Both the position numbers and the translations under genes were made by a program. This document shows positions 1 through 2,323 of a DNA stretch of 40,092 bases, piece after piece; position 1 is the stretch's first letter, and every line of letters starts with the position of its first letter. The stretch is from Clostridium sp. (GTDB taxonomy: Bacteria > Bacteroidota > Bacteroidia > Bacteroidales > Muribaculaceae), in the NCBI GenBank assembly GCA_023666615.1, contig JAMPBQ010000001.1:172630-212721 (forward strand), written 5' to 3'. Below the pieces are notes generated by a model, which did no database searches, was not told where the DNA came from, and saw only the letters and a list, made by a program, of their open reading frames with translations.

Positions 1-718
1 CCAGCTTGCCCGGCTTTCGGTCCGCGGCCAGCTTGCGCGCCTGTTTGCGCCGAGCCGATCTCTGGCCGATGATGTCCTTATGGTAGAACCTCAAGAATCG
101 CCCGAATCCGCTTTCAGATACGCCGCATTCATGAGCCACCTCGGCTATGGTCTTCTCCGTGCTTCGGTACATCTCCATAGCGTGGGCGTATGCCTCGGAG
201 CTCTGCTTTCGCGCGCCCCGGTGGGTGTTGTCGGCGATGCCCAGCCTCCGGCGCAGCTTTTCGCGCATGGGGATTACGTCAGGATAATGCATCCTGAGCT
301 GCGAGGCCAGGGCCGGGCCGTCCAAGCCGAACATTGCCGCCACCTGCGCCACGTTGTATTCTATGTATGCCACATCTCCGCAAGCTTCTATCGCAGCCTT
401 ATATTTAAGGTGTGACAAGAGGGATTGTCCCTTTGGAGCCTTCACCTTCAGGCCTCGCATATCGGCGTCATTCTCTTGCAGGCCATAACGGGCCAGGAGC
501 AGTGGGCGGTGGTGCTTCCCGATATGGGAGGCAAGCCCCTCTGCGGTGACTCCGCACTCCCGGGCTATTTCGCGCACGGGGAGAGCGGTGGCGGCATACA
601 TTTCCACGGCCTCAGCATACTTTTGCTCTGCCGCCTGCGTCCTCATGGACGCAGGCAAACGTTTTATGATATTTTGGAAACCCGCCCCGGGGTTAGTCAA
701 TTCTATCGCTCCATTCAT
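1..718 (-). CDS. Triple helix-turn-helix-like DNA-binding protein, partial (C-terminus beyond window)
   Basis: Reads leftwards from ATG 718 and is still open at base 1, so 239 residues are visible. Three similar units are seen at about residues 33-79, 105-160 and 176-220. Each begins with a (K/A)YAxA(V/M)EMY-like helix, followed by an HTH-like core (REIARECGVTAEGL, AQVAAMFGLDGPAL, AEVAHECGVSESGF) and a basic His/Tyr-rich tail (KHHRPLL, MHYPDVI, FYHKDII). The third and first units are most alike. No membrane segment or signal peptide is present; a cytoplasmic DNA-binding regulator is inferred, target unknown. GGAG lies 6 bases before the ATG. A TTG five codons upstream is a possible alternative start. 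No Bacteroidetes promoter is visible between 719 and 877; the nearest one is inside the invertible segment at 878-1077 and currently points away. It lies downstream of, and on the same strand as, the recombinase gene. I recognise the general type from Bacteroidales but no named gene. Confidence 0.75.
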   Translation of the reverse strand, partial: MNGAIELTNPGAGFQNIIKRLPASMRTQAAEQKYAEAVEMYAATALPVREIARECGVTAEGLASHIGKHHRPLLLARYGLQENDADMRGLKVKAPKGQSLLSHLKYKAAIEACGDVAYIEYNVAQVAAMFGLDGPALASQLRMHYPDVIPMREKLRRRLGIADNTHRGARKQSSEAYAHAMEMYRSTEKTIAEVAHECGVSESGFGRFLRFYHKDIIGQRSARRKQARKLAADRKPGKL

Positions 719-822: not shown

Positions 823-877
823 GATTATGGTGGCATATCTTTCTTGTCCTATTTTAGCGTCATAAAAATTTAGGTTA

Positions 878-894
878 CTCTAAACAAGAGATAC
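878..894 (+). repeat. Left inverted repeat of the putative invertible segment (IR-L)
   Basis: Sequence CTCTAAACAAGAGATAC; its exact reverse complement occurs at 1061-1077. The core is itself a dyad, CTCT-aaaca-AGAG, as expected of a tyrosine-recombinase crossover site with two arms around a short spacer. Outside the 17 bp the two copies diverge at once. Confidence 0.75.
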
Positions 895-1008
895 CACCAG
901 CACAATAAATCGGTGCTAGTCAGCGTTATTTGGATGATATGGAATCGGACTTTCTAAACAATTGATGTCAAAATTTAAAAATTTAGGAATCTTGCGCAAT
1001 TTTTAACT

Positions 1009-1021
1009 ACCAAAATTTGGT
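1009..1021. promoter_or_regulatory. Palindrome ACCAAA-a-TTTGGT over the -33 box
   Basis: A perfect 6-bp dyad with a single central base that overlaps the TTTG -33 element of the promoter in the invertible segment. This position suits a repressor or activator site. It may also be chance symmetry in AT-rich DNA. Confidence 0.35.
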
Positions 1022-1047
1022 CATTATTAGGAATTTGAGTAACTTTG
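1016..1047 (+). promoter_or_regulatory. Promoter inside the invertible segment
   Basis: TTTG at 1016-1019, 20 bases, then TAACTTTG at 1040-1047: a full match to the Bacteroidetes pattern. Transcription should start near 1052-1055, just inside the right inverted repeat, and runs rightwards into a hairpin and U8. No other comparable promoter in either direction was found in the segment. Confidence 0.7.
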
Positions 1048-1058
1048 CACTCTGAAAT

Positions 1059-1093
1059 GAGTATCTCTTGTTTAGAGATACTCGCTTTTTTTT
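1059..1093 (+). terminator. Intrinsic terminator formed by the right inverted repeat
   Basis: Stem GAGTATCTCT (1059-1068) and AGAGATACTC (1074-1083), loop TGTTT, then GC and eight T (1086-1093). It lies immediately downstream of the segment promoter, so in this orientation the transcript should end after about 40 nt and not run antisense into the recombinase gene. Confidence 0.6.
1061..1077 (-). repeat. Right inverted repeat of the putative invertible segment (IR-R)
   Basis: Exact reverse complement of 878-894. This copy sits in a longer perfect dyad (10-bp arms, 1059-1068 and 1074-1083, around a 5-base spacer), which makes it the more symmetric of the two putative crossover sites. Confidence 0.75.
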
Positions 1094-1120
1094 CAAGCGC
1101 TCTGCGAGAAAAGAGCCGCC

Positions 1121-2323
1121 CTACAGCGAGGCGATGATTGCGGCGTTTGCCTTGTCCACCACGGAAGTCTCAAGGGAGGCAAGGTAGATGCGGGTAGTTG
1201 CCTCGTTCTCGTGGCCCATGCCTTCGCTGATCACGCTAAGCGGGAATCCTTTCGCCCTTGCCGCGCTTGCCCATGAATGGCGGGCCACGTACATCGTAAG
1301 CGAATCCGGGGCCATCGCCATCTTCGCCACCTCCTTAAGGCCACGGTTGATTTTCTCAGCCATACGCTTGTAGGCGCATCGCTCGTTGCATCCGGCCCGA
1401 CTGATTATAGGCAATAGGTATTGGTTAGTATTTGTCGGGTATTTGCCGAGTATTTTCTGCATCTCTTCAGTCCAAGCTATTGTGAGACGCTGGCCCGTCT
1501 TGCGCCTGCGGTAGGAGATAGCGCCTTCCTTGAGATCGCTTTTTTTCAGAAAGGCCATGTCGACGAAGCTCATGCCGCGCAGGAGGAAACTCAACATGAA
1601 CATATCGCGAGCGAAATCAAGGGCCGGCGAGGCCGACAAATCCAAATTCCTTATCTTTCGAATGACGTCGAGGGGCAAAGCGCGCTTAGCTGTTTTCTCC
1701 ACCCCGGTGAATACCCGCCGAAAGGGTCGGCGGTCCTCTATGACGCCATCCTCCACTACGCGGTTGTAGGCCGCGCGAAGCACACGAAGATAGAATGAAA
1801 TCGTATTGGAGGAGTTTCCCTTGCTTTTGTGCCAGGCCGAGTAGGCCTCCATCATATCGGATGAAACACTGTCCATCATCACATCCTCACCCTTTCGGAA
1901 CTGCCTAAAGCTGTTAAGAGCCGCGGCATACGTCTCGGATGTGCGTATTCTGCCGTTTCGCCTCAGCTTTACTATCTGCCCCTCCATGAAATTGAAAAGG
2001 GAATATTCGCAGGCAAATCGCCTGTACTGGTCTATGATATCATCCACCGTGTGGCAGCCGCCTCTTTCCTCAAGCCTTCTGGCGGTCCTCGCCAGCCGCT
2101 CCACATCAGAGCGTATCCCTTGCCGTATGTCTTGAATTAGAGGCAGCCTCCCCATGCCGTTCGCATTCTTCACCATAGAACGCGCCGCATCCCACTCTTC
2201 GGGCAGCACGCGATATTCCGTGGTGAGCTGCCTCACCTTTCTTTCGTGTATAATCTGATAAAAAATCACGCCTTCGCGGGAGGACACCGCAGAAGGCCGA
2301 AACTTCACTTTTATTGAGGTCAT
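1121..2323 (-). CDS. Tyrosine-type site-specific recombinase (integrase/invertase family)
   Basis: 400 residues from ATG 2323. An upstream extension is open but lies across the predicted promoter, and MTSIKVKFRPS is a usual Bacteroidetes integrase start. The N-terminal arm-binding region is followed by a SAM-like core-binding domain (about 95-205) and a catalytic domain. Active-site residues seen: Arg249 (LLRGMSF), Lys275 (RRRKTGQ), Arg348 (YVARHSW; first His of the usual HxxR replaced by Tyr, common in this family), His371 (GMGHENE) and Tyr380 (RIYLAS). It cuts and rejoins DNA at paired short dyad sites. The adjacent 17-bp inverted repeats, 44 bp past its stop, are the obvious candidate substrate, so it is probably the invertase of a promoter switch. 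No other element genes (mobilization, excisionase) are visible. Confidence 0.88.
   Translation of the reverse strand: MTSIKVKFRPSAVSSREGVIFYQIIHERKVRQLTTEYRVLPEEWDAARSMVKNANGMGRLPLIQDIRQGIRSDVERLARTARRLEERGGCHTVDDIIDQYRRFACEYSLFNFMEGQIVKLRRNGRIRTSETYAAALNSFRQFRKGEDVMMDSVSSDMMEAYSAWHKSKGNSSNTISFYLRVLRAAYNRVVEDGVIEDRRPFRRVFTGVEKTAKRALPLDVIRKIRNLDLSASPALDFARDMFMLSFLLRGMSFVDMAFLKKSDLKEGAISYRRRKTGQRLTIAWTEEMQKILGKYPTNTNQYLLPIISRAGCNERCAYKRMAEKINRGLKEVAKMAMAPDSLTMYVARHSWASAARAKGFPLSVISEGMGHENEATTRIYLASLETSVVDKANAAIIASL

Follow-up and report, generated by a model that had tools for sequence, protein, structure and literature searches.

The segment at about positions 876-1079 of the window, the 40,092-nt stretch of Muribaculaceae DNA analyzed here, is very probably an inverton flipped by a tyrosine recombinase and one of seven elements that share the same arms. 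An invertible promoter had been proposed at this place in an earlier, sequence-only reading, and comparison between genomes supports that proposal through a design shared by the elements, linkage to recombinase genes and the occurrence of homologous segments in both orientations. The repeats, the promoter, the helical phasing of the sites and an accessory motif described below are likewise direct observations. The earlier reading had missed the multi-locus set, the accessory motif, the helical phasing and the terminator-like nature of the right repeat.

The perfect 17-bp inverted repeats reported at 878-894 and 1061-1077 were exact reverse complements when checked against the sequence, and a 17-mer scan of the window with up to three mismatches recovered these two copies alone (0.03 expected from shuffles). 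Their description as crossover-type dyads with a 5-nt spacer was also borne out, and the genome contains six further instances of the dyad-promoter-dyad unit. The right site is stronger than first described, with positions 1059-1083 forming a perfect 9-bp dyad around a 7-nt loop; in the family frame, ATCTCT-N5-AGAGAT, it is perfect, and the two mismatches of the left site fall on the outermost bases. The 5-nt spacer of the right site equals that of the left site in inverted orientation. As claimed, the non-coding segment holds a single Bacteroidetes promoter, on the + strand (TTTG at 1016-1019, 20 nt, then TAACTTTG at 1040-1047). The claim that the HTH gene has no other visible promoter also agrees with our scans: no TAnnTTTG directed toward the gene was found in the 900 nt upstream of it, and the two weak sites returned by a sigma-70-type scan of 600-1300 do not exceed the number found in shuffles. 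A run of ten G residues (799-808; C on the HTH strand) lies in the leader that separates the element from the HTH gene, where it adjoins a GGGG-TTTA-CCCC hairpin and could be a slippage tract.

Table 1. Features of the window element and genes next to the six other elements. Positions refer to the window unless another locus is named.
Feature	Position	Strand	Remarks
Target gene, HTH-repeat protein	1..718	-	Start ATG at 718
Left (target-side) crossover site TACTCTAAACAAGAGAT	876..892	.	2 mismatches to family dyad, outer half
Candidate invertible segment between sites	893..1062	.	Site start-to-start spacing 187 nt
Inner motif CTTTCTAAACAA	950..961	+	2 mismatches to TTTGCTAAACAA; 74 nt from non-promoter site start
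Promoter TTTG-N20-TAACTTTG	1016..1047	+	Points right, away from HTH gene (OFF)
Hairpin of right crossover site, then T8	1058..1093	+	Terminator-like for outward OFF transcript, -14.8 kcal/mol
Right (recombinase-side) crossover site ATCTCTTGTTTAGAGAT	1063..1079	.	Perfect family dyad
Terminator-like hairpin, 3' end of recombinase gene, before element	1115..1134	-	
Tyrosine recombinase, 401 aa	1121..2326	-	Arm-binding, SAM-like core-binding and catalytic domains
C33 neighbor			NusG-like protein; polysaccharide (capsule-type) setting read from ORFs
C11:719 kb neighbor	L078 5356-11001		SspB, SspC, SspD and PbeA matches; PbeA cut by stretch end
C11:617 kb neighbor	L085 9305-17999		FtsK/SpoIIIE with GYF, two weak WXG100, JAB and ThiF/E1 operon
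C2 neighbor			Sub-threshold secretion-sorting-tail match; Fib_succ_major protein
C14 neighbor			DUF6175 protein
C19 neighbor			Outer-membrane beta-barrel protein

All seven elements of the source genome follow one design, with the dyad ATCTCT-N5-AGAGAT at both ends, 5-nt spacers that match pairwise and an outward promoter at a fixed place. The pattern ATCTCTN5AGAG gave 30 strand-counted hits in the genome compared with one for the reversed pattern. The seven inverted pairs, each with spacers matching within the pair, have start-to-start distances of 186, 187, 186, 174, 187, 186 and 175 nt, and an outward TAnnTTTG lies at the family position in every pair; at C33, a second TAnnTTTG overlaps a site. 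The exact 17-mer of the window has a second copy at C11:617083, which is followed 182 nt later by a partner matching at 15/17 positions, and five further pairs beyond this one carry the same arms as the window element. Two perfect single dyads were also present, one at C11:102925 (where a contig ends next to a 100-N gap) and one on C10 (downstream of a recombinase paralogue); further single hits on C7 and C28 are not perfect dyads. Spacers are mostly locus-specific among the seven elements, with the same 5-nt spacer at window 876-1079 and G000:C11:617081-617283, and also at C14 and C19. Because the window and C11:617 kb elements have a common spacer, recombination between their sites, which the scaffold places approximately 443 kb from each other, is conceivable in principle. 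The genes next to the elements are diverse (Table 1), and several of their proteins are secreted, as judged by eye. The C11:719 kb inverton lies directly upstream of the Ssp/Pbe phosphorothioation-defense genes and points away from them in the assembly. By eye, a look-alike of the first gene of the L085 operon seems to follow a recombinase-linked element in L219.

The gene adjoining the window element encodes a tyrosine recombinase, as the sequence-only reading had stated: Phage_int_SAM_5, Phage_integrase and Arm-DNA-bind_5 all exceed the Pfam cut-off. A serine invertase was rejected because every recombinase family matched is of the tyrosine type. R250, K276, R349, H372 and Y381, which we take to be the catalytic residues, are invariant among 32 sequences, as is Y346, which presumably occupies the position where His is usual. 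Arm-DNA-bind_5 was matched at E≤0.01 in 26 of the 32 family members. A profile search of solved structures with the recombinase returned five chains, all of which match the C-terminal half alone and do not cover the arm domain.

Dyad pairs are physically linked to recombinases of this type. An inverted pair (≤3 mismatches per site, matching spacer) follows the recombinase stop codon within 700 nt in 45 of 110 homologous loci (L117-L226), representing 44 distinct segments; no pair was found at any locus in 20 rounds of shuffled downstream sequence or in 100 upstream windows. At least 300 nt of downstream sequence is available in 46 of the 65 loci without a pair, and none of the 19 loci that end <300 nt past the stop has one. 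Single upstream sites (≤2 mismatches) occur in 6/112 loci, two of them in 3-4 kb windows. The recombinase match is partial in one frame in four of the 45 pair-bearing loci (L203, L212, L219 and L225). Pair-bearing loci were found in Phocaeicola sartorii, Candidatus Butyricimonas faecavium, Prevotella and Muribaculaceae MAGs, among others, and pairs with more divergent arms in Paraprevotella clara and P. xylaniphila; the gene beyond the recombinase-linked element varies widely. Recombinase-linked pairs with altered arms at L159, L200 and L202 (e.g., Paraprevotella) raise the possibility that sites and recombinases co-evolve.

Among 49 genus genomes, co-occurrence of dyads with a close recombinase (E≤1e-60) was only moderate: dyads were present in 27/37 genomes with such a recombinase and 4/12 without (Fisher p=0.019), and for two or more dyads the association gave p=0.095. 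G035 (77% complete) and G043 (99% complete) have dyad pairs, and G011 and G024 single dyads, without a close recombinase. Inversion might be real but the work chiefly of a different tyrosine recombinase, such as the C10 paralogue, with the window neighbor as a passenger, which we regard as a genuine if minority possibility. The C10 paralogue is 65% identical, a single perfect dyad follows its gene, and the G043 and G035 elements, which lack a close recombinase, also favor this view; against this stand the physical linkage described above and the C10 copy itself, for which no partner site was found.

The 3' end of the HTH gene is lost in a 100-N assembly gap just beyond the window start. Its earlier description as a regulator gene held in part: HTH matches were found, all below the Pfam cut-off, and a regulator role was not confirmed. 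Four relatives of the protein are 414-434 aa long and, by eye, appear to consist of repeats of one HTH-like unit. Homologues of the gene occur in seven of the 49 genus genomes, the source genome included, at eight main loci, and five of these (window, L288, L289, L290 and L294) have an inverted dyad pair upstream, which makes the HTH gene a recurrent target. The promoter points toward the gene in three (L288, L289 and L294) and away from it in two (window and L290); at L288, the pair lies 671-845 nt from the gene. G035 has two HTH loci in opposite states, with no recombinase on either contig among the matches listed. Flipped homology among the HTH-gene elements was dropped as evidence because as-is and flipped identities were much alike, and orientation alone was counted.

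The window element could itself be a locked relic, its HTH gene permanently off or driven from elsewhere, although we consider this improbable. The two outer mismatches of the left site, the gap that interrupts the HTH gene and the lack of an outer copy of the accessory motif (best match on either flank, 6/12 mismatches) would all suit a relic. However, the inner 17-bp repeats are perfect, though drift would erode them, the promoter and the inner motif are intact and in register, and the C2, C14 and C33 pairs likewise have mismatched outer half-sites.

Segments in opposite orientation were found between related loci. L177 and L212 share 264 of 300 nt in the left flank and are 91% identical over 111 nt in the right flank, and the segment between is identical at 145/156 positions when flipped compared with 97/182 as it stands. 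The two loci represent two species, as the collection holds one genome per species. At L212, the recombinase match covers residues 2-302 only in one frame, so the gene may be broken there. A two-flank test gave 18 locus pairs, 8 inverted and 10 in the same orientation, the inverted pairs coming from six related loci and not being independent. The opposite orientation expected in relatives was seen for these homologous segments, flipped between homologous flanks; for the exact window element, only the assembled orientation was seen. In the source assembly, one contig ends at C11:102941 and another begins at C11:719114; the two overlap exactly over 55 nt, and this overlap extends up to the final base of the crossover dyad and no further. 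A k-mer length of 55 is a common SPAdes value, and the overlap fits a k=55 assembly graph with two continuations past the site, which suggests that the sample probably contained both orientations; the alternative is that the overlap at the C11:719 kb element is a true repeat. If it does reflect two orientations, then the two scaffold ends adjoin each other, and the order given in the scaffold is questionable at this point.

The same class of element is spread across the family. TCTCTN5AGAGA pairs were found in 83 of 397 family genomes at gaps of 140-170 and in 75 of 397 at gaps of 171-201, tallies in which some direct or tandem pairs (a few) are counted; the reversed pattern gave 0/397 in both gap ranges. 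The 60 loci kept contain 64 neighboring dyad pairs, of which 60 are inverted with a matching spacer, three are direct and one is of another kind, with unrelated spacers. All 59 distinct inverted pairs have an outward TAnnTTTG within 80 nt of one end, never at both, and in 57 of them the promoter is 36-40 nt from the outer end. The 91 distinct elements carry 38 different spacers. Spacing between sites is periodic at approximately 11 bp (R=0.56, p≤2e-4 vs uniform and jittered), with peaks near 165, 174-175, 185-186, 198 and 207, in 141 inverted pairs among the matches listed (four direct pairs and six tandem-repeat rows dropped by eye, near-duplicates from related genomes kept). This periodicity suggests that natural elements are selected for helical phase, as would be expected if both sites have to come together within a single short loop.

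Other arrangements of the dyad were also seen. Same-spacer pairs at L245, L273 and L277 are in direct orientation (L277 also has a neighboring inverted pair), for which excision rather than inversion is predicted. L185, L149 and L271 have three sites or two tandem inverton pairs and could be small shufflons. At G371:C83:2204-4176, a dyad series (TCTCTCCAAGAGAGA) is made of near-identical units approximately 182 nt apart, unlike the inverted pairs.

That the repeats are a plain terminator and a chance or duplicated copy of it, rather than recombination sites, is hardly credible: the right repeat is indeed a strong hairpin followed by T8, but of the 91 distinct elements, 10 have a T-run immediately beyond the promoter end and 6 have one beyond the opposite end, and this explanation, which the flipped pair L177/L212 already makes difficult to sustain, leaves the matched within-pair spacers, the helical phasing and the flipped homologues unaccounted for.

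If the element is an inverton, the recombinase, most likely the product of 1121-2326, would pair the two dyad sites, and strand exchange inside the 5-nt spacer would flip the segment. As assembled, the promoter is predicted to fire toward the 3' end of the recombinase gene, and the hairpin and T8 at the right site probably stop the outward transcript (OFF); inversion would let the promoter transcribe the HTH-repeat gene (ON). Since seven elements have common arms, one recombinase, alone or with the C10 paralogue, probably flips the distant promoters too. Such action in trans would switch a capsule-type locus, phosphorothioation defense, a T7SS-like operon and surface-type proteins.

The accessory motif is a 12-mer, TTTGCTAAACAA, that occurs with up to two mismatches in all seven elements of the source genome, 73-74 nt from the start of the non-promoter site; this inner copy sits 56 nt inside that site. 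Its distance to the promoter end varies in relatives, with clusters near 118, 130 and 141 nt. Among the 91 distinct elements, an inner copy (≤3 mismatches) is present in 58 (shuffle 1.0) and an outer copy 5-9 nt outside a site in 34 (shuffle ~0.4 per side), although these positions were set after the alignments had been viewed, for which the shuffles do not correct. Outer copies are at the promoter end only in 26 elements, the other end only in 4 and both ends in 4, and most of those with ≤2 mismatches are exactly 7 nt from the site. The C33 and C11:719 kb elements have an outer copy, with promoters directed away from the NusG-like and SspB genes. As a control, the reverse complement of the inner motif was present in 19/59 elements. 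A second inner motif, TGATAATCA, was rejected (36/59 vs a shuffle mean of 27 and maximum of 35; 17 lie at 37-39 nt).

The Arm-DNA-bind_5 domain of the recombinase makes an arm-site role for the 12-mer attractive; a host-factor site is as possible as an arm site, and a distance of 7 nt is short for a classical arm site. Among the 43 recombinase-linked elements, 26 have a recombinase-side outer copy, three of them together with a target-side one, and none has a target-side copy only. The promoter is clear in 37 of these elements, 27 OFF and 10 ON (binomial p 0.008, related loci not removed), and unclear in six more. The OFF share is 18/24 with a recombinase-side outer copy and 9/13 without (p=0.72), so the copy alone does not explain the OFF skew.

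A more speculative and rather unlikely reading is that the switches are directional and integrase-like, TTTGCTAAACAA being an arm-type or accessory site. In the ON state, the recombinase-side core would carry the outer and inner copies (attP-like) and the target-side core would be bare (attB-like); inversion would split the copies between the cores (attL/attR-like), giving OFF. If this were true, the integrase acting by itself would convert ON into OFF, and a directionality factor would be required to bring many loci back on together. The OFF skew and the excess of promoter-end outer copies (26 vs 4) fit such directionality, the two skews not being independent, but the indifference of the OFF share to the outer copy counts against that copy setting direction.

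With these data, one candidate switch becomes a class recognizable from sequence alone, by the dyad, the spacer match, the 11-bp phasing, the inner 12-mer and the promoter at 36-40 nt. They suggest that, in a gut family that is widespread, a single recombinase could switch a DNA-binding protein as well as secretion, phage defense and a capsule-type locus. Together with the phasing, the accessory motif at its fixed place also provides a testable model of site synapsis and direction preference in tyrosine-recombinase invertons. No such arrangement was reported in the accessible part of the literature on arm-type sites in phase variation or helical spacing of invertible DNA, nor in that on inversion phase variation in Muribaculaceae or invertible phosphorothioation promoters, a scope outside which most subscription papers fall.

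Parallels exist with several known systems. In the fimS switch of E. coli, a short promoter segment is flipped by the tyrosine recombinases FimB and FimE, with accessory sites near and inside the segment; FimB and FimE are not known to have an arm-binding domain. The window-type elements carry a conserved motif, which may be a counterpart of such accessory sites. The sites are different, and fimS is one locus. CTnDOT-type integrases are tyrosine recombinases that do have an arm-binding domain, with motifs arranged asymmetrically around one core site. By comparison, nothing at the window locus suggests a mobile element or integration, and both core sites are in one chromosome. An IntCTnDOT subgroup of integrases has been described in the available portion of PMC8138268.

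PhaseFinder-type surveys have recorded invertase-linked promoters across Bacteroidales (PMC11892184, PMC8748976, each as far as available). Their inverton groups resemble the window system in that inverted repeats flank a TAnnTTTG-type promoter, often beside an invertase and in a fixed arrangement; they differ in that the accessible text mentions no accessory motif or phasing, and the likeness is by description, not by repeat logos. Three master invertases of B. fragilis are described in the available part of PMC4747536. Two of these, Mpi, which flips 13 regions including seven capsule promoters, and Tsr0667, which flips three SusC/SusD clusters and nine others, share with the window system as proposed here, in that same text, the principle of one enzyme acting on many regions; Mpi is a serine recombinase, whereas the window candidate is a tyrosine recombinase.

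The tyrosine recombinase Tsr19 (BF2766) flips a promoter just downstream of its own gene and a distant one, according to the accessible text of PMC4747536. Deletion locks both promoters, and the local promoter is mostly OFF in culture, as far as the available accounts go; in those of PMC3090145, it is OFF in three genome sequences. A tyrosine recombinase, a local element and distant elements with the same repeat are common to the two systems, a likeness by description from these partial sources. Compared with the same descriptions, the window system has seven elements with one dyad and more loci, and its neighbors include an HTH-repeat gene, Ssp/Pbe defense and a T7SS-like operon. The inner and outer motifs and helical phasing, features of the window system, are not mentioned for Tsr19 in the available part of PMC4747536. 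By analogy, the window system appears to be Tsr19-like, working as Tsr19 does with more loci.
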